Below are positions 1 through 11,767 of a stretch of 11,980 nt of DNA, piece by piece. The position numbers and the translations under genes are program-made. Source of the stretch: Candidatus Izemoplasmatales bacterium (lineage in GTDB: Bacteria > Bacillota_I > Bacilli_A > Izemoplasmatales > Hujiaoplasmataceae); the NCBI GenBank assembly GCA_028699855.1, contig JAQVTV010000018.1, forward strand, positions 1 through 11,980, read 5' to 3'. Below the pieces are notes generated by a model. It saw only the letters and a list, made by a program, of their open reading frames with translations, did no database searches and was not told where the DNA came from. Position 1 is the first letter of the stretch. The number at the start of each line of letters is the position of its first letter.

Positions 1-752
1 TGGATGCGTCGATGAGCCATTCGGATCTGAGCCTGATGAAGATCGCCGACGTCCTCGGAAATCGACCAATCCATATTCACGTGGCAGAGAGCCGGATGGA
101 TCAAGATGATGCCAAGATGAAATATCAGATGTCGGTCATCGAGAGACTCAACCATTTCGATTTGATCCAACCCGATTCTATCCTGGTCCATGGGGTGCAT
201 CTGAGCGACAAGGAGTTGGACATCATCCGCGAGAAAAAGGCCGTCATTGCCCTGAACGTCTCGTCCAATATGAACAACGGTGTCGGCTTGCCCGATTATG
301 CACGCATGAAAGCAAGGGGCATACCGGTGATTATCGGCAACGATGGACTCCAGCCTGCCATCGCGCAGGAGTACCAAAATCTGGTGTTCGCGATGCATCA
401 TCTTAAAAGCGATCCCTGCGCCTTCGGTTTGAATGATCTTCAAGAAATCATCGAAGAAACGTATCGTTATGCCCAGCGAAGATTGCAGGTGCCCTTAGGC
501 AGAATCGAGGCAGGCTATATGGCGGACTTCATCGTCATACCCTATGAGCCTCCGACACCGATGCAACTCGATAATGCGCTCGGACATGTCTTTTACGGAC
601 TCTTTCATCGCTTCACACCTCGAGATGTGTACATCCAAGGGCGAAAGATCGTCGATCAATATGACGTTTCTGATCGGTTGAAACACGCATATGTGAATGC
701 CCGGGCGGAAGCCGAGAGGTTATGGCAACGTATAGAGGAGGAACAATCATGA
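1..752 (+). CDS. ssnA: SsnA-type putative aminohydrolase (5' partial)
   Basis: C-terminal 249 or so residues of an amidohydrolase-superfamily metal-dependent deaminase. The frame is open to the left edge (codons from base 3 read D-A-S before the ATG at 12), so that ATG is internal. E. coli SsnA is about 440 residues, so roughly 190 N-terminal residues, including the first metal-binding HxH, are missing. Visible hallmarks, in order: HVAE (metal His), the VHGVHL segment, the substrate-pocket segment NVSSNMNNGVG, the metal/catalytic Asp in IGNDGL (family usually TDG), and the C-terminal sandwich GRIEAGYMADFIVI followed by PPTPMQLDNALGH, which is strongly SsnA-like. Family members deaminate or hydrolyse cyclic amines such as guanine-type rings; the exact SsnA substrate in purine clusters is not shown by sequence. 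Its stop overlaps the next start (ATGA), so the two are probably translationally coupled. The family call is firm, the substrate is inference. Confidence 0.88.
   Translation, partial: DASMSHSDLSLMKIADVLGNRPIHIHVAESRMDQDDAKMKYQMSVIERLNHFDLIQPDSILVHGVHLSDKELDIIREKKAVIALNVSSNMNNGVGLPDYARMKARGIPVIIGNDGLQPAIAQEYQNLVFAMHHLKSDPCAFGLNDLQEIIEETYRYAQRRLQVPLGRIEAGYMADFIVIPYEPPTPMQLDNALGHVFYGLFHRFTPRDVYIQGRKIVDQYDVSDRLKHAYVNARAEAERLWQRIEEEQS
735..742 (+). promoter_or_regulatory. Strong ribosome binding site deciding the start of the flavoprotein gene
   Basis: GAGGAGGA lies six bases before the ATG at 749, inside the last codons of the ssnA-like gene. It selects 749 over the in-frame ATG at 722, which has no such site and would add nine residues encoded wholly within ssnA. 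Confidence 0.75.
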
Positions 753-1828
753 GTTTGAAGACCCAATTCGATGGCATGGTGTTCGAAAACCCGTTGATGC
801 CTGCGGCGGGACCCCTGAATGGAGATCTCGAAAAACTGCTCTTTTTGCATCATGCGGGCGTCGGTGGCATGGTCACGAAGACGATTTCCACCCAAGAACC
901 CCATATTCCCAAGCCATGTATTTATGCGGAGAAGGACCGGGTCATGAACTCCGAATTGTGGAGTGAACATAGCTATGAACGATGGATCGACACGTTTCTT
1001 CCGGGATATATGGCAGTCAAGGATAGGCCTTTGATCATATCGGTCGGTTACTCGGATCAAGATATGGAATGTCTGATCCCGAAACTCGAGCCATTCGCGG
1101 ATGCCTTTGAGGTCTCGACGCACTATGTGGGAACTGATCTCAAGAAAATCGCTCATACCGTTAAAACCATACGAAAACTGACCTCGAAACCCTTGTACAT
1201 GAAAATCAGCCCGCATATTCCTTCACCAGAAGCTTTCGCCAAGGAAGTCTATGAAGCCGGGGCCAGCGGAATCGTGGCCATCAACTCTGTGGGTCCGACC
1301 ATGAAGATCGATATCCCCAAGCGCAAGGCCATCTATGGCAATGACCAGGGTTTTGTCTGGACCAGTGGCCCCATCATCAAACCGATCGCGCTTGCCATCG
1401 TCAAAAAAATCAAATCAGCCGTGCCCCAGATGACAGTCATCGGTGTCGGTGGCATTCAATCCGCAGATGACGTGATCGAATTTCTCCTTGCCGGTGCGAG
1501 CGGTGTCCAAATGTTGTCGTCTGCGTTGATCAAAGGCAAACAACTCTATCAACAAGTGATTTCCGATTTGCCTGAAGCACTCAAAAAGCATCAATTCACA
1601 AGTGTCGAAGCCGTCATCCGAACGCATCTTGAGCATTCTGTCAAATACGAGGCGGGATTGCCCAAATTGATAGAATCGCGGTGCATCCGCTGTGGTTTGT
1701 GTGAGAAGGTGTGTCCGTACTTCGCGATTGAAGATCCCGGAGTCATCACCTTCATCGACGACAAATGCTTCCGCTGTGGACTCTGCGTCTCCCGATGTCC
1801 GACGCAGGCCATCGAGATGGATATATGA
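749..1828 (+). CDS. Dihydroorotate/dihydropyrimidine dehydrogenase-like flavoprotein with two [4Fe-4S] clusters
   Basis: A 359-residue protein. Residues 1 to about 295 form an FMN-binding TIM barrel of the DHOD/PreA family: it opens with FENPLMPAAGP, has the conserved FMN lysine in YMKISP (K152), and ends with SGPIIKPIAL and the phosphate-binding VIGVGGI...LLAGASGVQ. Residues 312-322 (C312, C315, C318, C322) and 340-350 (C340, C343, C346, C350) are two CxxCxxCxxxC ferredoxin motifs, as in the C-terminus of dihydropyrimidine dehydrogenase and PreA. The segment that should hold the pyrimidine-binding Asn and the catalytic Cys/Ser (N-x-S-C-P-N in DHOD) instead reads EVSTHYVGTD (121-130), with a shortened loop. 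A classical pyrimidine substrate is therefore unlikely. In this operon it is a candidate for ring reduction or for passing electrons, analogous to YgfK-type proteins; that role is inference. It overlaps both neighbours by four bases. Confidence 0.85.
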   Translation: MSLKTQFDGMVFENPLMPAAGPLNGDLEKLLFLHHAGVGGMVTKTISTQEPHIPKPCIYAEKDRVMNSELWSEHSYERWIDTFLPGYMAVKDRPLIISVGYSDQDMECLIPKLEPFADAFEVSTHYVGTDLKKIAHTVKTIRKLTSKPLYMKISPHIPSPEAFAKEVYEAGASGIVAINSVGPTMKIDIPKRKAIYGNDQGFVWTSGPIIKPIALAIVKKIKSAVPQMTVIGVGGIQSADDVIEFLLAGASGVQMLSSALIKGKQLYQQVISDLPEALKKHQFTSVEAVIRTHLEHSVKYEAGLPKLIESRCIRCGLCEKVCPYFAIEDPGVITFIDDKCFRCGLCVSRCPTQAIEMDI

Positions 1829-3924
1829 AATTCCAACCAGACATTGGCACGCCGATTCCTAGGGTCGATGCCAAGGAAAAGATCAGCGGAGCCGCAGCCT
1901 ATATCAACGATATCGATATGCCTGGCATGCTTTATGCGAAGACGTTGCGATCGAAGATGGCTCATGGGAAAATCATCAAACGGCACTATCCGACGTTGCC
2001 GGAAGGCTACGCCATTATCGACTATCGTCATATCCCTGGAACGAACATCGTCAAAGCCATCTATGAAGACTGGCAGATTTTTCCGGTGGATGAGGTGCGC
2101 TATATCGGCGAACCGATTCTCTTGGTTGTCGGCGAAAATAAAGATGTGATCATCGATATCCTCGAGGCCATTGAGATCACCTATGAGGAGATGGAACCTC
2201 AGTTCGAATGGATCGACTCGGTCATCCATTACCACTACGAAAAAAAGCATGGATCGCGGCCCTTTGCGGATGCCAACCGCATCATCGAACATACCTATGA
2301 GACGGGATATCAAGAACAGGCCTATATCGAGCCTCAAGGCATGATCGGTTATCTCGATCAAGACAAGATGACATTGATCGGTTCGATTCAATGCCCGTAT
2401 TATGTGAAAAATGCCGTTCTAATGGCTTTGGGATGGGAAAATGAACGCGTTCGCGTCATCCAAGCCCATGTCGGAGGGGCTTTTGGCGGCAAGGAGGAGT
2501 ATCCTTCCTTAATCGCCTGTCAGCTCGCAATGGCGGTCATCCAAGTGAACAAGCCGGTCAAGCTCATCTTTGAACGCGAAGAAGACATCATCGCGTCGAC
2601 GAAGAGACACCCAGCTCAGATCGCGATGAAAGCAGCGATCGATTCCGAAGGACACATCATGGCGCTCAAAGTGCACGTGGGCATTGACGCCGGTGCCGTC
2701 ATCGGGTTGTCCGGAGTGGTTTTGTCCCGCGCGATGATTGCGGCGACAGGCGCGTATACGATCGAGAATCTCGACGTGACAGGAGATGTCTACCGGACCC
2801 ATAGTGTGCCCACCGGAGCGTTCCGCGGTTTCGGCGCACCGCAAATGATGTTCGCCATCGAAATGTTCATGGAACATATCGCTCGGAATTTGGGAAAAGA
2901 ACCTTTGGCATATCGCATGGCGTATGTGGCAAAACAATACGATTTGACCGCGACGAGCGGAACGTTTCGTGACCCGATACTGATGCAGAAAATGATTGAA
3001 GAAGCGATGAAACGCAGTCGATATGAGGAAAAAGCCCTTCAATATCAAAATCTGCATCGATATCAAGGAATCGGGATGAGTTTCTTTCTTCACGGTTGCG
3101 GTTTCACAGGCAGTGGCGAAGCCACGACGATCAAGGCCAAGGTGCGCTTGCGTCGTGAAGCATCCGGAGTCGTCCATATTCTCATCGCTGCGGTCGATAT
3201 GGGTCAAGGCGTACGAACCGCGATGCGGAAGTTGGTCGCACATATGCTCGAAGTGCCGATCGACCAGGTGATCTATGACTTGCCTGATACGGATTGTGTG
3301 CCTGATTCGGGACCCACTGTCGCTTCGCGTACGATGATGATCGTTGGAGGTCTCGTCGCCCGAGCGGCGCAACGTCTCGGGATGGAGCCGCAAATAGCGG
3401 TTGAAATTGAAGAAACATACCATCAACCCAGCGAGATCCAATGGGATGAGGCACGGATGCAAGGCGATGCTTACCCGGCCTATTCCTGGGGTGTCAATGT
3501 GGTCGAGGTCGCTGTGGATCCGGTGACCGGAGAGGTCAGCGTGGTCGGGGCGTGGAGCGTCTATGATGTCGGCAAGGCCATCGATACCTTGATGGTCCGT
3601 GGTCAAGCCGATGGCGGGTTGGCTCAAGGTATCGCCTATGGCTACCTTGAAGTCATGCGCCATCACCAAGGAAAGATCCAGCAAAGAAATTTGACAGACT
3701 ATATCATCCCTACGGCGGCAGATATGCCACCGATGGAAACCTATCTTTTCGACAACCCCTATGCCTATGGGCCATATGGGGCGAAAGGTGTCGGCGAACT
3801 CACCCTTGTGGGCGGAGCTCCGGCGATTGCCAAAGCGATCGAGATGGCGATCAAACGTCAAATCACAAAAATTCCGGTGACACCGGAGATGATCATGGAG
3901 TTGATGACACATGGCGAAGATTGA
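1825..3924 (+). CDS. Molybdopterin-binding subunit of a xanthine dehydrogenase-family hydroxylase
   Basis: A 699-residue large subunit that binds the molybdenum cofactor and hydroxylates the substrate. Start 1825 overlaps the previous stop (ATGA); an upstream in-frame ATG at 1765 lies in the ferredoxin-coding region and is unlikely. Landmarks: the N-terminal domain from PRVDAKEKISGAAAY, then QEQAYIEPQGM, Q189 in SIQCPY (position of Gln767 of bovine xanthine oxidase), GGAFGGKE with E224 (Glu802), AFRGFGAPQ with R334 (Arg880), MGQG (459-462), and catalytic E658 in GAKGVGE (Glu1261). The Glu/Arg pair that holds purines is conserved; aldehyde oxidases and CO dehydrogenases lack it. This supports a purine substrate such as hypoxanthine or xanthine. 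The protein is somewhat shorter than typical XdhA-like subunits. The two small subunits follow directly. Labile selenium cannot be judged from sequence. Confidence 0.92.
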   Translation: MKFQPDIGTPIPRVDAKEKISGAAAYINDIDMPGMLYAKTLRSKMAHGKIIKRHYPTLPEGYAIIDYRHIPGTNIVKAIYEDWQIFPVDEVRYIGEPILLVVGENKDVIIDILEAIEITYEEMEPQFEWIDSVIHYHYEKKHGSRPFADANRIIEHTYETGYQEQAYIEPQGMIGYLDQDKMTLIGSIQCPYYVKNAVLMALGWENERVRVIQAHVGGAFGGKEEYPSLIACQLAMAVIQVNKPVKLIFEREEDIIASTKRHPAQIAMKAAIDSEGHIMALKVHVGIDAGAVIGLSGVVLSRAMIAATGAYTIENLDVTGDVYRTHSVPTGAFRGFGAPQMMFAIEMFMEHIARNLGKEPLAYRMAYVAKQYDLTATSGTFRDPILMQKMIEEAMKRSRYEEKALQYQNLHRYQGIGMSFFLHGCGFTGSGEATTIKAKVRLRREASGVVHILIAAVDMGQGVRTAMRKLVAHMLEVPIDQVIYDLPDTDCVPDSGPTVASRTMMIVGGLVARAAQRLGMEPQIAVEIEETYHQPSEIQWDEARMQGDAYPAYSWGVNVVEVAVDPVTGEVSVVGAWSVYDVGKAIDTLMVRGQADGGLAQGIAYGYLEVMRHHQGKIQQRNLTDYIIPTAADMPPMETYLFDNPYAYGPYGAKGVGELTLVGGAPAIAKAIEMAIKRQITKIPVTPEMIMELMTHGED

Positions 3925-4384
3925 ATGGATGCTGAACGGAACACCGATATCCTCTGACATCGATCTCTCGATGCGTCTTTTGGACTATCTTCGCGATCAC
4001 CAGCACCTCAAAGGACCCAAAGAGGGATGCGGCGAGGGAGAATGTGGCGCGTGTGCGGTACTCATCGACCACCAGATCGCCAATTCATGCCTTGTTCCGA
4101 TGGCGAATGTCGCAGGTCATGAAGTGGTGACGATTGAAGGATTTGCGAAGACAAAACGCTATCAGATCATCGCACAGGCGTTCATCGATTGCGGTGCGGT
4201 TCAGTGCGGGTTTTGCACACCGGGTATGATTATCGCGACTGAGAGTCTTCTCCATCATCAACCTCAGCCCACCATCTCCGAAATCAAGGTCGCCTTATCG
4301 GGAAACCTATGTCGCTGCACCGGCTATAACATGATCATCGAAGCGATCACTTTGGCGGCGAAACGGGGTCGAGGCGAATGGTAG
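3911..4384 (+). CDS. [2Fe-2S] iron-sulfur subunit of the xanthine dehydrogenase-type enzyme
   Basis: A 157-residue protein, normal length for the family. Residues 1-75 form a plant-type ferredoxin domain with C40, C45, C48 and C60 (GCGEGECGACAV...NSC). Residues 80-150 form the helical second-cluster domain with C99, C102 (QCGFCTPGM), C134 and C136 (LSGNLCRCTGY). All eight cluster cysteines are present. It moves electrons from the Mo centre to the FAD subunit. The ATG at 3911 is chosen because the product begins KIEWMLNG, as in homologs, and a GGAG-like site precedes it. It overlaps the Mo subunit gene by 14 bases and the FAD subunit gene by 7, which fits equimolar production of a heterotrimer unit. 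In E. coli XdhD this domain is fused to the Mo domain; here it is separate. Confidence 0.95.
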   Translation: MAKIEWMLNGTPISSDIDLSMRLLDYLRDHQHLKGPKEGCGEGECGACAVLIDHQIANSCLVPMANVAGHEVVTIEGFAKTKRYQIIAQAFIDCGAVQCGFCTPGMIIATESLLHHQPQPTISEIKVALSGNLCRCTGYNMIIEAITLAAKRGRGEW

Positions 4385-5223
4385 AAGCGCGAATTCCTCA
4401 TAGCCTCCAAGAGGCTTTGATCTTGATGTCTCAGGCGACGTATACGATTGTGAATGGAGCGACCGATCTCTTGGTCCAGAAACGTTCATGGTCGGGGACC
4501 ATACCCAAGTTTTCTCAGCCCCCCTTGTATATTCGCGGATTGAAGGAACTCGATTATATCTGTGAACGATCGGGAATGTTGGAAATCGGTGCGACAACAT
4601 CGCTCGAAACCATCCTTCATCATCCCAAAACACCAAAGATTCTGCAACACATCATCCTCACGATGGCATCTCCGGCCATCAGACATCAGGCCACGCTTTC
4701 GGGAAACATCCAAAACGCATCGCCAGCCGGGGATTCCTTGGTAGGACTCTATCTCCTCGATGCTTCGATCGTGCTGCATAATCGCCATCATGAACGCGTG
4801 ATTTCCATCCAAGATTTCATCGTTGATGTCCGGAAAACCATGCGGGAAGCGGATGAACTCATCACCAAGGTCGTGTTGCCGATCGATAAGTTCTCGCAAT
4901 GCGCTTACACCAAAGTCGGGCCGAGAAAAACCGATGCGATCGCAAAAGTCGCTTTCGGTGGACTGATCGATATCGAGAATGACCGGATCCGCGATATCCG
5001 CATCGCTTTTGGAGCGGTATATAAGACGGTCTTGCGTTCCCGCAAGATTGAAGAATCGCTGATGGGTAAAGACCGATCGGCTGTACCTGAAATGAAACAC
5101 GTGCTGCTTGAAGGCTATGCATCCCTGATCCAACCCATCGACGATCAACGATCGAATCGGTGGTATCGCAAAACGACCGCTTTGAATTTGTTGGAAGCTT
5201 TTCTTGATTCGATTTCTCGATAA
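4378..5223 (+). CDS. FAD-binding subunit of the xanthine dehydrogenase-type enzyme
   Basis: A 281-residue medium subunit of the CoxM/XdhB/YgfM family. The N-terminal PP-loop that grips the FAD diphosphate reads IVNGATDLL (24-32), a variant of the usual AGGTDLL. The second FAD loop is IRHQATLSGNIQNASPAGD (101-119), a good match to IRN.ATiGGNi..asP.aD. The C-terminal domain shows YTKVGPRKTDAIAKVAFGG and RIAFGAV, typical of the family. It accepts electrons from the [2Fe-2S] subunit and passes them to NAD or another acceptor. The start at 4378 overlaps the previous gene by seven bases with a GAGG just upstream. No extra FeS insertion, as in 4-hydroxybenzoyl-CoA reductase, is apparent. Length is between YgfM (about 260) and XdhB (about 290). 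Confidence 0.9.
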   Translation: MVEARIPHSLQEALILMSQATYTIVNGATDLLVQKRSWSGTIPKFSQPPLYIRGLKELDYICERSGMLEIGATTSLETILHHPKTPKILQHIILTMASPAIRHQATLSGNIQNASPAGDSLVGLYLLDASIVLHNRHHERVISIQDFIVDVRKTMREADELITKVVLPIDKFSQCAYTKVGPRKTDAIAKVAFGGLIDIENDRIRDIRIAFGAVYKTVLRSRKIEESLMGKDRSAVPEMKHVLLEGYASLIQPIDDQRSNRWYRKTTALNLLEAFLDSISR

Positions 5224-5228
5224 GGGGG
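5222..5228 (+). promoter_or_regulatory. Ribosome binding site of the adenine deaminase gene
   Basis: AAGGGGG overlaps the stop codon of the FAD subunit gene and sits four bases before the ATG at 5233. The nine-base gap contains nothing else, so translation of ade is probably coupled to the gene before it. Confidence 0.55.
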
Positions 5229-5232
5229 ATTT

Positions 5233-6951
5233 ATGGACAAAGACAAACTTCGCCGTATCGCTCTAGGAGAAACGTCCGCCAAACTGGTTTTGAAAAATGC
5301 CCGGATCATCAACGTCTTCTCCGGAACGATCGAGACGGCGGATATTGCGATCGAAGACGGAATTATCGCAGGCATTGGCAGTTATGAAGGTATAAAAGAG
5401 ATCGATGTGTGCTTTTCGTATGTCGCTCCTGGATTCATGGACGGTCATGTGCATATTGAATCCTCGATGATGACGCCGGGCCATTTCGCCCGTCTCGTGA
5501 TGCCTTTCGGCACGACAACTGTCATCGCAGATCCCCATGAAATCGCCAATGTCTGCGGTTTATCAGGCATCCAGTATATGATTGATTCTGCACAACACGT
5601 ACCACTCGATGTGAAAATCATGATTCCTTCTTGTGTCCCTTCCACTCCGTTTGAAACCGCGGGAGCCAAGATTCTTTCAAGCGACATCGAGAAGATCAAA
5701 GACGATCCCGCGATTCTCGGTTTGGGTGAAATGATGGACTACCCGGGTGTCATCCACGGGGATAGGGAAGTATATCGAAAAATCGCATCCGTCGGCATGA
5801 TGCCAATCGATGGACATGCCCCGAGGCTCACCGATAAAGAACTGAATGCTTATGTCCTGGCAGGCATGGAAACCGACCACGAAGCCACAACCGCTTCGGA
5901 GTTGGAAGAAAAAGTGAAGCGCGGTATGTACGTGCACTTGCGCGAGGGTTCGCAGACGAAAAATGTCCGAGACTTGCTCGGCGGGATTACACATGAGAAT
6001 CATTCCCGGCTCCTGTTTTGCACAGATGACAAACAGCCAGAAGACATCATCAGTCATGGACACATCAGCGCCAACATCAATCTCGCCATCGCTGAGGGCA
6101 TCGATCCCATTGATGCGATCAAAATGGCGACGATCAATATCGCCCAGTGTTATCGCTTGCGCCATATCGGCGCGATCGCTCCGGGATATCATGCCGACTT
6201 GGTCGTGTTTGATGACCTGCATCAGATTCACCCGCATCTGGTGTTTAAAAACGGCGTCATCGTCGCGAAAGACGGAGTTGCTTTGTTTCAACCCCCACCC
6301 GAATCAACTCATCCGCTTGGCCAATCCGTGCGCTTCAACCCGGAAGCCATTGATTTCCGCATTCGCGTGACTTCCAACCACGTCTATGCCATCGAACTTG
6401 AGAAAAACAACGTGACGACGAAAAAAACACCCATCATGATTCGGACTCAATCGGGGTATTATATCCAAGATCCTGCGAGCGACATCTTGAAATTGGCAGT
6501 CGTCGAACGGCATCAATCAAGTGGCAGAGTCGGGTTGGGTTTTGTCAAAGGCTATGGTTTGAAAAAGGGAGCGATCGCCATGACGATTGCGCATGATTCC
6601 CATAATTTGATCATCATCGGCGACAATGATGATGACATGCGTCTTTCTGCCAAAAGAATCAAAGAGATTGGTGGCGGGATCGTACTGGCACATGATGGTC
6701 ATGTGTTGCATCAACTGCCCCTGGAAGTCGGTGGATTGATGACTTCAACGAAAGTGGAATCATTGATTTTTCAACTCGACCACATGAAAAAAATGGCACG
6801 GAAACTGGGCGTGAACGAGGCGATTGACGATCCTCTGCTACAACTCGCGTTTTTGTCCTTGCCGGTCATACCGTCCTTGAAACTGACCGACCACGGTCTG
6901 TTCGATGTGGACCAGTTTCGAATTATCCCGCTTGAAGTGGAGGCGAAGTGA
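5233..6951 (+). CDS. ade: Adenine deaminase
   Basis: A 572-residue enzyme that hydrolyses adenine to hypoxanthine and ammonia; E. coli Ade is about 590. Diagnostic segments: PGFMDGHVHIESSMMTP (66-82, metal-binding H72 and H74 plus the Glu characteristic of the Ade family), PFGTTTVIADPHEIANVCG (91-109), LGEMMDYPGV, DGHAPRL with H195, DHEATT, and CTDDK with the catalytic/metal Asp at about 265. The C-terminal third has the Ade-specific region with FVKGYGLKKGAIAMTIAHDSHN and IGDNDDDM, which separates it from other amidohydrolases. It supplies hypoxanthine for the Mo-hydroxylase encoded immediately upstream, which makes adenine a probable input to this operon. It is unrelated in sequence to the adenosine-deaminase-type adenine deaminases. 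Confidence 0.96.
   Translation: MDKDKLRRIALGETSAKLVLKNARIINVFSGTIETADIAIEDGIIAGIGSYEGIKEIDVCFSYVAPGFMDGHVHIESSMMTPGHFARLVMPFGTTTVIADPHEIANVCGLSGIQYMIDSAQHVPLDVKIMIPSCVPSTPFETAGAKILSSDIEKIKDDPAILGLGEMMDYPGVIHGDREVYRKIASVGMMPIDGHAPRLTDKELNAYVLAGMETDHEATTASELEEKVKRGMYVHLREGSQTKNVRDLLGGITHENHSRLLFCTDDKQPEDIISHGHISANINLAIAEGIDPIDAIKMATINIAQCYRLRHIGAIAPGYHADLVVFDDLHQIHPHLVFKNGVIVAKDGVALFQPPPESTHPLGQSVRFNPEAIDFRIRVTSNHVYAIELEKNNVTTKKTPIMIRTQSGYYIQDPASDILKLAVVERHQSSGRVGLGFVKGYGLKKGAIAMTIAHDSHNLIIIGDNDDDMRLSAKRIKEIGGGIVLAHDGHVLHQLPLEVGGLMTSTKVESLIFQLDHMKKMARKLGVNEAIDDPLLQLAFLSLPVIPSLKLTDHGLFDVDQFRIIPLEVEAK
6939..6943 (+). promoter_or_regulatory. Ribosome binding site favouring ATG 6951
   Basis: GGAGG lies seven bases before the ATG at 6951 and only four before an in-frame GTG at 6948. 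The spacing favours the ATG, giving a one-base overlap with the ade stop codon (TGATG). Confidence 0.65.
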
Positions 6952-8207
6952 TGAATCACGTCATAGGCTATCAATGCACGACGTGCCGGAGAATCTATCC
7001 TCGCGACGTCGCCTTTCTCACCTGTCCCGAATGTGGGATTGAGGGGATTCTTGACGTTCTGTATGATTATGATCGGATTGCATCCCACATATCCAAAGAA
7101 CGCTTGCGTCATGATCCCACCCCTTCGATTTGGCGATATCTGCCGCTGTTGCCGATAGAAGGAACCATGATCGAAGATACGCTCCGCGTCGGGATGACGC
7201 CATTGTATCAGGCACGTAGGTTTCAGGAACATACTGGGGTACACCATCTCTATATCAAAGACGATGGCGTGAATCCCACCATGAGTTTGAAGGACCGGGC
7301 ATCGGTGCTCGCGGTCATGGATGCGCGGGAACGCGGTCATGACACCCTATGTTGCTCATCAACAGGCAATGCGGCTTCAAGCCTCGCGGGCAACGCGGCG
7401 CGTTGCCGATGTCAAAGTGTGATCTTCGTTCCCAAGCGTGCGCCCATGGGCAAACTGGCGCAACTCATCTACTTTGGCGCAATCCTCGTTCGTGTCGACG
7501 GAGACTACCATGACGCTTTCAGTCTGTCTCAACAAGCGATCGAGCGATACGGATGGTACAACCGGAATGCTGCAATCAATCCCGTCATGGTGGAGGGAAA
7601 GAAAACCGTCGCTTTTGAAATCGTCGAACAGATGCAATTTATCGCGCCCGATTATGTGTATGTTTCTGTCGGAGATGGCTGCACGATCGCTGGGGTATAC
7701 AAAGGTTTCCGGGAAAGCCATCGACTCGGACTGATTGAGAAGATACCCAAGTTGATCGGTGTCCAGAGCAGCGGCTGTGATCCATTCGTACGTGCGTGGA
7801 AAGAAGGAAAGCCGCTTCAGGCACAGCCGGAGCTGACACTCGCTGATTCCATCGCCGTGGGTGTTCCTCGCAATCCGCAAAAAGCCATGGATGCCGTCAA
7901 GGCATCATCGGGTCGTTGGGTCAGCGTCAGCGATGCGCTCATCCTCGAAGCAATGCGCCGTCTAGGACAAGATGAAGGGATCTTCGTGGAACCTGCCGCA
8001 GCGGCAGCCTTCGCCGGAGCCATGCTTCATCAATCCATTCCGGGAGCGACGCCAGAAGACACAGTGGTGGTCATCGCGACAGGGAATGGTCTCAAAGATA
8101 CGAAAACGGCTTTGAATGCCGTGGCAGAGCCACATATGATTAAAAATAATTTGTCTGATTTCATCGCATTCTATCACAATGAAACTCAAAGGAGAAAACA
8201 TGATTAA
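6951..8207 (+). CDS. Threonine synthase-like PLP enzyme with N-terminal zinc ribbon
   Basis: A 418-residue fold-type-II pyridoxal-phosphate enzyme. Residues 9-28 form a zinc-ribbon-like element (C9, C12, C25, C28). The catalytic domain follows: VGMTPLY (80-86), LYIKDDGVNPTMSLKDRA with the presumed PLP lysine K114, the substrate loop SSTGNAASSLAG (136-147), and the glycine-rich phosphate loop VSVGDGCTIAGVYKG. Automated annotation would probably call it threonine synthase. No homoserine kinase, homoserine dehydrogenase or other aspartate-family gene is adjacent, and the gene is embedded among purine-catabolic genes. An ammonia-lyase or beta-elimination role on an amino-acid fragment of the purine ring, as 2,3-diaminopropionate ammonia-lyase YgeX does, is therefore plausible. 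Family assignment is good, reaction is inference. It overlaps the next gene by eight bases. Confidence 0.85.
   Translation: MNHVIGYQCTTCRRIYPRDVAFLTCPECGIEGILDVLYDYDRIASHISKERLRHDPTPSIWRYLPLLPIEGTMIEDTLRVGMTPLYQARRFQEHTGVHHLYIKDDGVNPTMSLKDRASVLAVMDARERGHDTLCCSSTGNAASSLAGNAARCRCQSVIFVPKRAPMGKLAQLIYFGAILVRVDGDYHDAFSLSQQAIERYGWYNRNAAINPVMVEGKKTVAFEIVEQMQFIAPDYVYVSVGDGCTIAGVYKGFRESHRLGLIEKIPKLIGVQSSGCDPFVRAWKEGKPLQAQPELTLADSIAVGVPRNPQKAMDAVKASSGRWVSVSDALILEAMRRLGQDEGIFVEPAAAAAFAGAMLHQSIPGATPEDTVVVIATGNGLKDTKTALNAVAEPHMIKNNLSDFIAFYHNETQRRKHD
8188..8194 (+). promoter_or_regulatory. Ribosome binding site deciding ATG 8200
   Basis: AAAGGAG(A) is five to six bases before the ATG at 8200. It rules against the in-frame ATG at 8179, which would place the site inside the reading frame and add seven residues. 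The chosen start lies within the end of the upstream gene. Confidence 0.7.
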
Positions 8208-9564
8208 GATTCCTTATGGCCCCACCTACGATGAAATGCTCCACCCTGAAACGATCGACCCCCGCACAAGAGCGGAAGCGCTTCAAGCAAAAGCAGAAGA
8301 ACTCGATCCGATCAACCTCTTCAACATCACTTGGAAAGATGAAGACAATCAAGTGTTGAAAATCGTATTACCCAAAGCGCTGACCGGAGTCGATGCGAAC
8401 ATCATCGTGCTGACCGGCAAGTATTTTCCTTCCGGATCTCATAAAGTCGGTCCTGCCTATGCCACCCTCATCGAGGGCTGTGTGGATGATACGATCATTC
8501 CGGGCAAACATACGATTTTGGGACCGTCGACGGGAAATTTCGGTATCGGTGTGGCATATATATGCAATCTGATGAAATATGATTCCATCGTCATCATGCC
8601 CGATAACATGTCCAAGGAACGCTATGACCGCATCGAGCGCTATGGGGCGAAACTGGATTTGACTCCCGGAACAGAGTCGGACGTCATACTCACACTTGAA
8701 CGCACGTTCAAACTCAAAGAGAATCCGAAAAACCGTTCGCTTGCGCAGTTCGAACTTATGCCCAACTATCGTTTCCATCGGCATGTGACAGGTTATAGCG
8801 CGATCGAAGCCGTTCAAGGCATCGGCAATTCTCGCATCGCGTGTTTTTGTTCGGCACCGGGTTCAGCCGGTACTCTGGCTGCAGGCGACCAGATCAAGAA
8901 GGTGTTTCCCGAAGCCAAAGTCGTCGCGCTCGAACCCTATGAGTGCTCAACTTTGATGAACGGCGGCAGAGGCCAGCACCGCATCGAAGGCATCGGTGAC
9001 AAGATGTGCACGTTGATCCACAATGTGTTGAATACGGACTTCATTGCATTGATCAAGGATGATGACTGCGTCAAGGGACTGAAACTCATTCATGACGGCA
9101 CGGATATTCTCATCGAACATGGGGTTGACCCGGCAACTGCCAAAGCGATGACGGAGCTGTTCGGTGTCTCCTCGATTTGCAATATCATCGGCGCGATCAA
9201 GATGGCGAAGTATCTCCGTTTGGGACCAGACGACAACATCGTCACGATCGCTACAGATGGCTATGATCGCTATGATTCGGTCATCAGAAATCTCGAACAG
9301 CGTTATCTTGAAACCGAAGACTTCGTTTTACGACGCTGGTTCACCGATGTGTTCCGCAAAAACGGTGTGGAAGATATCGCGGATTATCGCTCATCAGCCC
9401 AAAAGGACAAGTTGTTTTTACAAAAAGAACGCGATTGGTTGAAATTCGGTTATGCCCAGGAATATCTCGATGAAATGAAGTCGCCGGCATTTTGGGATCA
9501 TGAATACGAAAAAGTGCATGCATATGATCAAAAGATCATTGCCCGAAGGAGTCGTGAAGAATAA
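8200..9564 (+). CDS. Fold-type-II PLP-dependent lyase-like enzyme (cysteine synthase/TrpB superfamily)
   Basis: A 454-residue protein with no close named homolog that I recognise. Visible features: an N-terminal extension of about 65 residues, then [16 protein letters not shown] (72-87) with K82 as the presumed Schiff-base lysine, [15 protein letters not shown] (106-120) as the substrate/carboxylate loop, the [18 protein letters not shown] segment typical of the small domain, and [14 protein letters not shown] (around 217-230) as the PLP-phosphate loop. It ends with about 100 residues beyond the usual core, rich in charged and aromatic residues. It is not recognisably orthologous to YgeX (2,3-diaminopropionate ammonia-lyase, about 400 residues, FGLNAFK lysine motif), although it occupies the ygeX position directly before ygeY and ygeW. 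A deaminating or eliminating lyase acting on a purine-derived diamino or ureido acid is the most economical guess. Its stop shares one base with the next start (TAATG). Confidence 0.82.
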
Positions 9565-10787
9565 TGAAAGCGAAGATTCGCGAACTGGCGCAAAAATATC
9601 TGCCGGAAATGACGGCATTTTTGCGCGACATGATTCGCATTCCTTCGGAATCTTGTCAGGAAGAAGGCGTCATCAAGCGCATCCAGGCGGAAATGGAAAA
9701 GGTCGGTATTGATGAAGTCACGATCGATCCCATGGGCAACATCATCGGCAGAATCGGCTCAGGCCGACATCTGATCGCTATGGATGCCCATATCGACACG
9801 GTCGGCATCGGCGAACGCGATCATTGGCACGTCGACCCTTATGTGGGAAAAGAAGATGAAACGACCATTTTTGGGCGCGGTGCATCCGATCAAGAAGGCG
9901 GTATGGCTTCCATGGTCTACGCCGGAAAAATCATCAAGGATCTGCATCTGGAGGATGATTATACTTTGTGGGTCACCGGTACCGTTCAAGAAGAGGATTG
10001 TGATGGCTTGTGCTGGCAATACATCATTGAAGAAGATCGTCTTCGCCCTGAGTTTGTGGTGATTACCGAGCCGACCTCATGTCGCATCTATCGTGGACAT
10101 CGCGGTAGAATGGAGATCAAAGTGACAACATCCGGAACGAGTTGTCATGGCAGTGCTCCCGAGAGAGGTGAGAACGCGATTTTCAAAATGGCCCCGATTC
10201 TTCAAGAACTGGAAAGTTTGAATGACCGGTTGATCACGGATGCCTTTCTGGGAAAAGGAACCTTGACAGTCAGCGAGATCTTTTCGGGTTCGCCCTCACG
10301 TTGTGCCGTAGCGGATCAATGCTGGATTTCGATTGATCGAAGACTCACCGATGGCGAAACCTATCTGTCCGCCATCGCGGAAATCGAAGCGCTTCCGTCT
10401 GTCCAAAAAGCGAATGCCAAAGTGGAACTCTATGATTACGCCCGTCCATCATGGACGGGGCTCGTCTACCCGTCTCAAGCGTACTTTCCGACATGGGCGC
10501 TACCGGAGTCGCACCCCGTATGTCAAACCTTGATCGATAGTTATAAGGAGTTGTTTGAAAAAGAGCCCGTCGTCGACAAGTGGACTTTTTCAACGAACGC
10601 GGTATCGATCATGGGGCGATACGGGATTCCTTGTATCGGATTCGGACCGGGACATGAAGACCAAGCCCATGCACCCAACGAGCGGACATGGAAAGCGGAA
10701 CTTGTCGAGGCTGCGGCCATGTACGCGCTCATTCCCACGCAATATCTAAAATCGATCCACGAATCCAACAAAGGAGAAAAATCATGA
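9564..10787 (+). CDS. ygeY: YgeY-family M20 metallohydrolase
   Basis: A 407-residue M20/ArgE/DapE-type zinc hydrolase. The two-metal site is intact: H76 with D78 in DAHIDTV, bridging D109 in [11 protein letters not shown], catalytic base E143 and metal ligand E144 in VQEEDCDG, E169 in ITEPT, and H369 in [11 protein letters not shown]195 in [14 protein letters not shown] belongs to the dimerisation (lid) domain and is typical of the family. The segments RGASDQEGG and GHRGRMEI match the YgeY/selenium-metabolism-hydrolase subfamily better than carboxypeptidase G2 or ArgE. Such enzymes cleave amide bonds in N-acyl or N-carbamoyl amino acids, so removal of an acyl or carbamoyl group from an open-ring purine product is plausible. 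An AAGGAG at 9546-9551 precedes the start at a rather long spacing (12 bases). It overlaps ygeW by four bases. Confidence 0.9.
10771..10776 (+). promoter_or_regulatory. Ribosome binding site deciding ATG 10784
   Basis: AAGGAG sits seven bases before the ATG at 10784, in the last codons of ygeY. The upstream in-frame ATG at 10688 would add 32 residues of non-homologous, Arg/His-rich sequence and is rejected. Confidence 0.75.
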
Positions 10788-11767
10788 AACCCCTCTTTAA
10801 AGGAAAACACTTCATCACACTTGAAGACTGGAAGAAATCCGAGATCGATGTGTTGCTCGAAACCGCCAAACAATTGAAACATGATTTTCTTCACAATCAA
10901 CCCACTGCCTATTTGACAAACAAAGTGGCATTCCTCATGTTTTTTGAGCAGTCCACCCGCACCCGCAATTCGATGGAAGCGGGTATCGCACAACTGGGCG
11001 GGACCGGCATTTTTCTCGACACTTCGAAGATGCAGATTGCTCATGGAGAGAGTGCGAAAGACACTGCCAAGATATTGTCAAGTTACGGACACGGCATCGC
11101 CTGTCGCAATTGTTTCTGGGAAGTAGGTAACAAGTACTTGCGCGAAATGGCGGAAAACGCATCCGTTCCGATCATGAACTTGCAATGTGATCTCTATCAT
11201 CCGATGCAAGGATTGGCAGATTTGATGACGATACAAGAAGTCTGGCCCGATACCAGACGTCTGAAAGTATCGATCATCTGGGCCTACGCGACAACGCACA
11301 AAAAACCCATCAGTGTGCCACTGACGCAAATCCTCTTGTTTCCAAGATATGGGATGGATGTGACGATCGCCTATCCCGAGGGTTATGACCTTCCCGAGTG
11401 GGCATTTCAGAAAGCGCGTCAAAACGCGCTTGAGAACGGTGGTAGTTTGACCATCACCCACGATCAGGAAGCGGCATATCGCGATGCCGATGTCGTCATC
11501 CCCAAAAACTGGGGAAGTTGGGTCAACAATCCTTCCAGCGATGTGATCGATGAGTTGCTGGAGCGAGGAAAAACCTGGAAGTGCACCACCCAACGGATGG
11601 CCCTTGCAAAACCGGGTGTGAAATATATGCATGCGCTTCCGGCGGATCGAGGTAACGAAGTAGAAGATGCCGTCATCGACGGACCCCATTCCATCATTTA
11701 TCAGGAGGCTGAAAATCGCTTGCACACCGCCAAGGCGGTCATGGCACTGACCATGGGAGACAAATAA
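10784..11767 (+). CDS. ygeW: YgeW-like carbamoyltransferase (transcarbamylase of unknown substrate)
   Basis: A 327-residue member of the aspartate/ornithine carbamoyltransferase family. The carbamoyl-phosphate domain has [15 protein letters not shown] (STRTR at 57-61), QIAHGES (84-90), and [16 protein letters not shown] with HPMQ at 139-142. The second domain has the segment [19 protein letters not shown] (164-182). This aligns with TWAYSPSYGKPLSVPQ of E. coli YgeW and corresponds to the proline-rich region that forms the knot in N-acetylornithine-type enzymes. YPEGYDLP and [10 protein letters not shown] are also YgeW-like. The amino-substrate motif reads MHALPADR (282-289), not HCLP of ornithine carbamoyltransferases, which argues against an arginine-pathway role. 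It is about 70 residues shorter than E. coli YgeW. The probable role is phosphorolysis of a ureido intermediate to carbamoyl phosphate, feeding carbamate kinase; the substrate is not known. Confidence 0.88.

Follow-up and report, generated by a model that had tools for sequence, protein, structure and literature searches.

The reductive route of urate degradation, also covered by a review (PMC12990295), has been resolved into assayed steps in which XdhD forms yanthine, YgfK or UacX acts with SsnA to yield ureidomethyl-hydantoin, HyuA produces diureidopropionate, the ureido groups are taken off by YgeW or UacY followed by YgeY, and YgeX releases pyruvate (PMC12507026). Here we analyze an 11,980-nucleotide stretch (the window) from a Candidatus Izemoplasmatales bacterium (GenBank assembly GCA_028699855.1, contig JAQVTV010000018.1), which is the complete contig G000:C70 of a metagenome-assembled genome (MAG) of 1.34 Mb in 242 contigs, 68.5% complete. 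In our judgment, the window quite likely represents the 3' portion of an operon with which an Izemoplasmatales bacterium ferments purines anaerobically via urate reduction. The logic of the operon is familiar; what appears to be new, judged from the gene families, is a reductive urate operon that lacks YgeX and carries a widespread further pyridoxal 5'-phosphate (PLP) enzyme, here designated plpC.

Purine-related gene clusters have been reported for Candidatus Izemoplasmatales. These include loci with xanthine dehydrogenase (XDH) and deaminase genes that resemble those of some Clostridium ("xanthine-degradation loci"; PMC8289736), a thiosulfate-induced cluster of strain zrk13 (tags G4Z02_01105 to 01195) with genes for XDH, guanine and adenine deaminase, NTPase, nucleotidyltransferase, ornithine carbamoyltransferase (OTC), cysteine synthase, and threonine synthase (PMC8397711), and, from an Izemoplasmatales isolate, a DNA-plus-RNA-induced cluster encoding XDH, Fe-S proteins, dihydropyrimidinase, nucleoside-triphosphatase, and adenine deaminase (PMC10470597). 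In the available text of these three reports the clusters are not assigned to urate reduction, and the string "uric" is absent from the three main texts.

Gene Content and the Reductive Urate Route

The window contains ten + strand genes between positions 3 and 11767 in the order ssnA, a uacX-like gene, three XDH subunit genes, ade, plpT, plpC, ygeY, and a carbamoyltransferase gene (Table 1), where plpT and plpC denote a threonine-synthase-like and a cysteine-synthase-like PLP enzyme. Eight of the nine junctions overlap by 1 to 14 bases, the sole exception being a 9-base gap before the start of ade. An earlier note, made from the letters of the window, had described an overlapping ten-gene purine-catabolic operon akin to the E. 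coli yge/ygf cluster; the operon is confirmed, and the kinship is borne out by gene families, gene order, and relatives. Among the genes by which PMC12507026 recognizes reductive urate clusters, the window holds SsnA, YgfK-or-UacX, YgeW-or-UacY (PF00185), and YgeY; YgeX (TIGR01747) is over its cut-off in none of 61 genomes compared, including that of the window.

We count the window's aminohydrolase as SsnA given that its best models are those of SsnA, although the part present is C-terminal and scores below the cut-off. The uacX-like protein has a DHO_dh domain and two Fer4 domains without an NAD/FAD domain. The earlier note had listed it as a dihydroorotate dehydrogenase (DHOD)-like FeS flavoprotein; it is present as described and is not odd, because it fits the published UacX variant. 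Its predicted role is supported by locus L024, in which a YgfK-type protein (1318.5 bits against the YgfK cut-off of 835.3) occupies the UacX position in an unchanged gene order. The motif S[TC]HYVG occurs in all 39 UacX proteins at 56% identity or more, that of the window included; four of the six other proteins in the alignment keep SCP, and a YgfK piece and a 27%-identical protein of L034 have neither motif. As an aside, S[TC]HYVG may be diagnostic for UacX versus PreA/DHOD-type proteins (window 749-1828; L116, L155, L160, and L161). By these assignments, the operon is a predicted variant of the reductive urate pathway that combines the UacX variant with a YgeW-type transferase.

Conservation of the Operon in Relatives

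The contig start truncates the operon inside ssnA. In relatives, which we sampled as 20 loci of 13.8-20 kb and twelve upstream stretches, hyuA, XdhC, and a second XDH are encoded upstream of this point. The consensus order begins with a MobA/MocA-like NTP transferase, the FAD, 2Fe-2S, and molybdopterin subunits of the second XDH, a membrane protein of ~210 residues, XdhC/CoxI, NTPase_1, and a HyuA-type amidohydrolase, and continues with SsnA, UacX, XDH, Ade, plpT, plpC, YgeY, and the carbamoyltransferase. Clustering of open reading frames (ORFs) from the 20 loci assigned HyuA to 18 of them, UacX to 16, and a YgfK-type protein to two (L024 and L041); L023 starts downstream of the HyuA/UacX genes, and L038 could not be assigned in that stretch. 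HyuA and the second XDH are present in all three genomes of the same genus, both on the ssnA contig in G001 and G002, with HyuA adjoining ssnA and the second XDH on a separate contig in G003. Strain zrk2 (L101) also carries the operon. The conservation that the earlier note had proposed to look for is therefore found, with gene set and order recurring in relatives and other groups, and the hyuA-, XdhC-, and MobA/MocA-type genes that it suggested seeking beyond the contig all lie upstream in relatives. The carbamate kinase and purine permease that it also suggested seeking are found at the level of the 61 genomes, in which carbamate kinase (47/61) and the xanthine/uracil permease family (53/61) are over cut-off, and not in the window's own incomplete MAG.

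Several of these assignments call for caution. The MocA, XdhC, HyuA, and SsnA NCBIfam models are matched below cut-off in relatives. Counting against the proposed pathway, the full-length SsnA of L022 reaches 344.7 bits against a cut-off of 444, the HyuA-type protein of relatives has dihydropyrimidinase as its best model (below cut-off), and neither HyuA, the second XDH, nor a carbamate kinase or xanthine/uracil permease over cut-off was found in the window's own MAG, of which 68.5% is represented.

A CDA-type deaminase, likely a guanine deaminase, is often encoded next to the carbamoyltransferase in relatives, mostly on the opposite strand. The ~210-residue membrane-type protein between the second XDH and XdhC, found in 13 of the 20 loci without a Pfam match (L022:18844-19479), is perhaps part of a transporter, and the NTPase_1 protein (PF03266) encoded just upstream of hyuA in 18 of the 20 (L022:17544-18017) is possibly a cofactor-maturation helper.

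Two Types of Xanthine Dehydrogenase

The loop containing Glu606 of E. coli XdhD has been linked to yanthine formation (PMC12507026). In an alignment of XDHs to E. coli XdhD, from which copies shorter than 650 or 700 residues were excluded and in which E. coli XdhA lacks its N-terminal piece, this loop is present in 17 of 17 molybdopterin subunits of the second, off-window XDH and in 0 of 28 subunits of the window type, the window's own included. The three off-window copies from the same genus have it as well, and it is absent from E. coli XdhA and five other XDHs of the alignment. In a tree, the off-window subunit clusters with E. coli XdhD (support 0.999); its identity to XdhD is 36%, compared with 24% for the window type. 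Given the loop and this tree placement, the window XDH is best read as urate-forming; the window XDH would thus probably make urate and the off-window XDH reduce it. Two observations do not fit this assignment. The Glu606 loop is missing from the XDHs of 846-852 residues encoded in the clear uricolytic clusters L095-L097 and hence does not occur in every such cluster. In addition, the off-window XDH shares 33% identity with E. coli XdhA, and XdhA is the NCBIfam model on which it scores highest, below cut-off (649.3 vs 780).

The window-type molybdopterin subunit (1825-3924) is also short: it is 694-727 residues long as called in all 28 cases, ~70 residues shorter than that of the second XDH, and by eye the length gap falls in the second molybdenum cofactor domain.

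The PLP-Dependent Enzymes

Two genome samples were used to follow plpC. In a phylum sample of 295 genomes, clear SsnA (E-value of 1e-85 or better) was found in 17 genomes plus the window's own, whose cut SsnA reaches 1e-49, and clear plpC (1e-68 or better) in 18; the two sets are identical, and the next-best E-values outside the set are 1.9e-65 and 1.5e-28. In the comparison of 61 genomes (plpC at 1e-70, SsnA at 1e-30), the two genes disagree in five, with SsnA only in G006 and G033 and plpC only in G017, G018 (which has an SsnA fragment), and G056; the disagreeing assemblies have 130 to 430 contigs. Among named genomes, the best 80 of at least 583 plpC loci include 45 with two or more other core uricolytic genes, nine with one, and 26 with none within the fetched stretch. 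The 26 loci and the five disagreements count against the proposed pathway. With 45 of 80 loci holding two or more other core genes, and with the gene order recurring in relatives and beyond, the association is not due to chance. Carbamate kinase is encoded in ten of the 45 loci and lies directly 3' of the transferase in L113-L115.

The YgeX family is rare in this setting. In the 295-genome sample YgeX is over cut-off in four genomes, one of which (G265) belongs to the plpC/SsnA set of 18, and the locus of this genome (L095) has YgeX and no plpT. By comparison, the fetched loci, which did not include those of G043 and G047, show plpT for 15 of the 18 genomes. Similarly, the 45 core-gene plpC loci include 34 with plpT, three with a YgeX-type protein (one of these with both), and nine with neither, six of the nine having less than 4 kb on one side. 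In total, plpC co-occurs with YgeX-type proteins in L095, L109, L141, and L166, only one of which has plpT; these proteins are 39-56% identical to E. coli YgeX, and that of L095, the only one of the four scanned, is over two of three model cut-offs. In line with a role in place of YgeX, alignment to the YgeX-family profile spans 216 positions in the window's plpT, compared with 51 in plpC. Although plpT passes the TIGR00260 (thrC) cut-off, other threonine synthase models stay below theirs, and of 24 plpC-bearing relatives with genomes of high quality, 21 have no homoserine dehydrogenase (PF00742; present in G011, G041, and G045), which makes threonine synthesis unlikely for plpT there; PF00742 was not found in the window's own MAG, at 68.5% completeness. 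Based on the near mutual exclusion of plpT and YgeX, and on the co-occurrence of plpC with YgeX-type proteins, plpT is most likely the substitute for YgeX, and plpC would have another role. The PLP pair that the earlier note regarded as a variant feature is real; it is not just a rearranged YgeX, as plpC accompanies YgeX-type proteins in four loci.

Both plpT and plpC keep the PLP lysine. Two points argue against the substitution of YgeX by plpT: counterparts of Asp120 and Asp189 of E. coli YgeX, which we take to be catalytic, are absent from plpT and plpC (replaced by Thr and a gap), and L109 encodes plpT, plpC, and a YgeX-type protein together. This Acididesulfobacillus cluster (L109:8594-16572) also includes a sigma-54 activator. 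We rejected the idea that plpT and plpC merely share the YgeX role, given the YgeX-type protein and plpC without plpT in L095, L141, and L166.

No NCBIfam model is over cut-off for plpC, and its nearest homolog with an organism name (85% identity) is from a Candidatus Izemoplasmatales bacterium. Its distribution suggests that plpC belongs to the pathway with no place in the published scheme. The literature searched names no pathway step for it, although papers that possibly describe further variants were not covered, and the main text of PMC12507026, as available, makes no reference to cysteine synthase, threonine synthase, Mycoplasmatota, or Tenericutes. We speculate, with considerable doubt, that plpC represents a new, widespread pathway step in which diaminopropionate or albizziin derived from purines is the substrate of a beta-replacement (or epimerase) reaction. 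Part of the purine C3 unit would then not end solely as pyruvate but exit in the form of an amino acid, such as cysteine or S-sulfocysteine made by capturing sulfide or thiosulfate. The only hint of sulfur capture is the thiosulfate induction of the zrk13 cluster, which matches by gene names; if true, this reading would connect the fermentation of purines with the assimilation of sulfur in sulfidic sediments. For plpC, an Asp in contact with N1 of PLP, which would favor poor leaving groups, was considered and dropped as unproven, since the alignment can also be read as ATDG with Thr at that position, like STEG of YgeX.

The plpC neighbors in three loci without core uricolytic genes gave no usable theme. 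They include a CpXC protein in L174 and L178, a poly-A polymerase head in L178, and a methyltransferase in L177. In Elusimicrobia, plpC adjoins a CpXC-domain protein (L174 and L178) or, in L162, a similarly sized gene, and core uricolytic genes are absent from these stretches.

The Short Carbamoyltransferase

The carbamoyltransferase scores far below the YgeW cut-offs, with 164.8 (TIGR03316) and 175.7 (NF005538) bits against 500 and 453, and higher on OTC models, also below cut-off (251.5 vs 280.85). Two motifs, KPxSVP and PK[NS]W, were read off an alignment made in this analysis. KPxSxP is present in 61 of 65 aligned proteins, including those of the window and E. coli YgeW; it is missing from ArgF and two proteins of other type (L140 and L159) and altered in L119. 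PK[NS]W-like letters occupy the place of the SMG loop of ArgF, SMG itself being found in ArgF only. In an ArgF-rooted tree, the long YgeW proteins nest inside the short family. By motifs and tree, the carbamoyltransferase is a predicted short relative of YgeW. The "YgeW homolog" of the earlier note is thus upheld by the motifs and not by the model scores.

Predicted Pathway and Alternative Readings

From the families, gene order, conservation, gene swaps, and co-distribution observed, we infer the following reactions, directions, and substrates, as well as the division of roles between the two XDHs and between the two PLP enzymes. Ade would convert adenine to hypoxanthine, and guanine would probably enter through the adjacent CDA-type deaminase of relatives. 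The window XDH would oxidize hypoxanthine and xanthine to urate, which the off-window XdhD-like XDH would reduce to yanthine. UacX with SsnA would carry out a reduction followed by ring opening, SsnA being predicted to act on dihydro-yanthine, and the off-window HyuA would act on the hydantoin to form 2,3-diureidopropionate. Carbamoyl phosphate would be released by the short YgeW-like enzyme, YgeY would remove the second ureido group to give 2,3-diaminopropionate, and plpT (or plpC) in the place of YgeX would yield pyruvate and ammonia. The products that the earlier note foresaw, an oxo-acid (here pyruvate), ammonia, and carbamoyl phosphate, are therefore probable. Because hypoxanthine to urate yields four electrons and urate to dihydro-yanthine consumes four, the use of adenine would be balanced in redox terms as far as pyruvate.

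We weighed four other readings. Assignment of the lyase step to plpC instead of plpT, with plpT performing the remaining PLP step, is somewhat unlikely. The CysK-like family of plpC performs beta-elimination chemistry, and plpC marks the same genomes as SsnA; however, plpC stands alongside YgeX-type proteins in four loci, of which one has plpT, and it is plpT that the YgeX-family profile covers more fully. We regard as unlikely, and slightly more so, a reversal of the XDH roles, with urate reduced to yanthine by the window XDH and the off-window enzyme serving as an ordinary xanthine dehydrogenase. This reversal would accord with the position of the window XDH next to uacX and ssnA, with the XDHs lacking Glu606 in other uricolytic clusters, with XdhA as the best curated (below cut-off) model of the off-window XDH, and with L089-L094, which keep both XDHs in the absence of ade; the grouping of the off-window subunit with XdhD, its higher identity to XdhD, and its invariant Glu606 loop, in full-length and same-genus copies alike, argue for a urate-forming window XDH.

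It is very unlikely that the two PLP enzymes truly serve threonine and cysteine biosynthesis and only happen to lie in the operon. Those listed plpT homologs that bear a name in their sources are called threonine synthase, plpC homologs are called cysteine synthase or PLP-dependent enzyme, and plpT passes a thrC cut-off. Against this, homoserine dehydrogenase is present in only 16 of 61 genomes (6 of 30 of high quality) compared with 14 of 14 controls, a further PALP match exists in 38 of 46 plpC-bearing genomes, and plpC follows SsnA across genomes. The least probable reading, which we give hardly any credence, is a different purine route (the xanthinase/formiminoglycine type, as in purinolytic clostridia) or a role confined to salvage: PMC8289736 compared such loci with those of biochemically known purinolytic Clostridium, yet the SsnA-, UacX/YgfK-, HyuA-, YgeY-, and YgeW-like genes jointly fit the reductive route of PMC12507026.

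With the reductive urate route as the preferred reading, DNA-degrading Izemoplasmatales gain a specific predicted path by which purines yield pyruvate, ammonia, and ATP. The division of roles between the two XDHs makes redox-balanced adenine fermentation testable. Two enzymes annotated as amino-acid biosynthesis genes appear to belong to a purine pathway, and similar plpC-bearing sets occur among named genomes of Acidobacteria, Chloroflexi, Ignavibacteria, SAR324, Lentimicrobiaceae, and others, as judged by record titles. The published survey marked YgeX by PF00291 (PMC12507026); as this proxy matches plpT or plpC, clusters free of YgeX could be scored as YgeX-bearing.

Features of the Window

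Coordinates and model matches are collected in Table 1. The PLP ORF of 461 residues most plausibly starts at 8200. The gene begun at the 3' end of the contig is probably outside the pathway; a similar gene lies 3' of the transferase in 12 of 20 related loci. An Rfam scan at the gathering threshold of the window and L042-L047 returned no riboswitch and a single tRNA, in L045.

Table 1. Genes of the window, with supporting models and predicted roles
Gene or product	Positions	Strand	Models and predicted role
ssnA, C-terminal 249 residues, 5' end cut by contig start	3..752	+	Aminohydrolase; best NCBIfam models NF005540 (174.1 bits) and TIGR03314 (169 bits), next 75.5
uacX-like	749..1828	+	PF01180 (DHO dehydrogenase domain) and two Fer4 (4Fe-4S); predicted yanthine reductase
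XDH molybdopterin subunit, short form, 699 residues	1825..3924	+	PF02738, PF20256, PF01315; predicted hypoxanthine/xanthine hydroxylase
XDH [2Fe-2S] subunit	3911..4384	+	PF01799, PF00111
XDH FAD subunit	4378..5223	+	PF00941, PF03450
ade, adenine deaminase	5233..6951	+	TIGR01178, 590.8 bits (cut-off 472.5)
plpT, four conserved N-terminal Cys	6951..8207	+	TIGR00260 (thrC), 192.4 (cut-off 167.1); predicted YgeX substitute
plpC, 454 residues	8200..9564	+	PF00291 only; PALP-fold PLP enzyme linked to the pathway
ygeY, M20 hydrolase	9564..10787	+	TIGR03526, 675.3 bits (cut-off 321.5); predicted cleavage of second ureido group
Short YgeW-like carbamoyltransferase, 327 residues	10784..11767	+	PF02729, PF00185; predicted carbamoyl phosphate release
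ThpR/2'-5' RNA ligase-like gene start, cut by contig end	11787..11980	+	Putative assignment, read from the sequence

Comparison with Known Systems

The zrk13 and zrk29 clusters (PMC8397711 and PMC10470597) come from the same bacterial order and match this operon by gene names alone. The DNA-plus-RNA induction reported in PMC10470597 would speak for the purine-dependent expression that the earlier note proposed to test, to the extent that those names identify the same cluster. The C. difficile uricolytic cluster, by its description in PMC12507026, likewise has the DHOD/Fe-S protein UacX without an FAD domain in place of YgfK; unlike it, the operon analyzed here encodes a transferase of the YgeW type rather than UacY, has an FAD subunit for each of the two XDHs, and lacks YgeX. 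In Clostridium algoriphilum DSM 16153 (L141), a YgeX-type protein (49% identical to that of E. coli) adjoins YgeY, a long-type plpC lies on the opposite strand, and the stretch has no plpT; shared with this species are XDH subunits of the second type, UacX (56%), SsnA, HyuA, the short carbamoyltransferase (70%), and YgeY (70%).

The E. coli K-12 cluster is composed of xdhD, ygfM, ygfK, ssnA, hyuA, ygeW, ygeX, ygeY, and yqeA. Common to both systems are SsnA, YgeY, a HyuA-type protein, a carbamoyltransferase with YgeW motifs, an XdhD-like XDH (off-window here), and MobA/MocA- and XdhC-type genes. The split XDH that the earlier note took as distinguishing is indeed split; it is not unusual, E. 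coli XdhABC being split likewise, and the second XDH, beyond the contig, looks more like the urate reductase. Unlike the E. coli cluster, the Izemoplasmatales operon includes ade, contains no carbamate kinase gene, and uses UacX for YgfK, a short carbamoyltransferase, and plpT together with plpC without YgeX.

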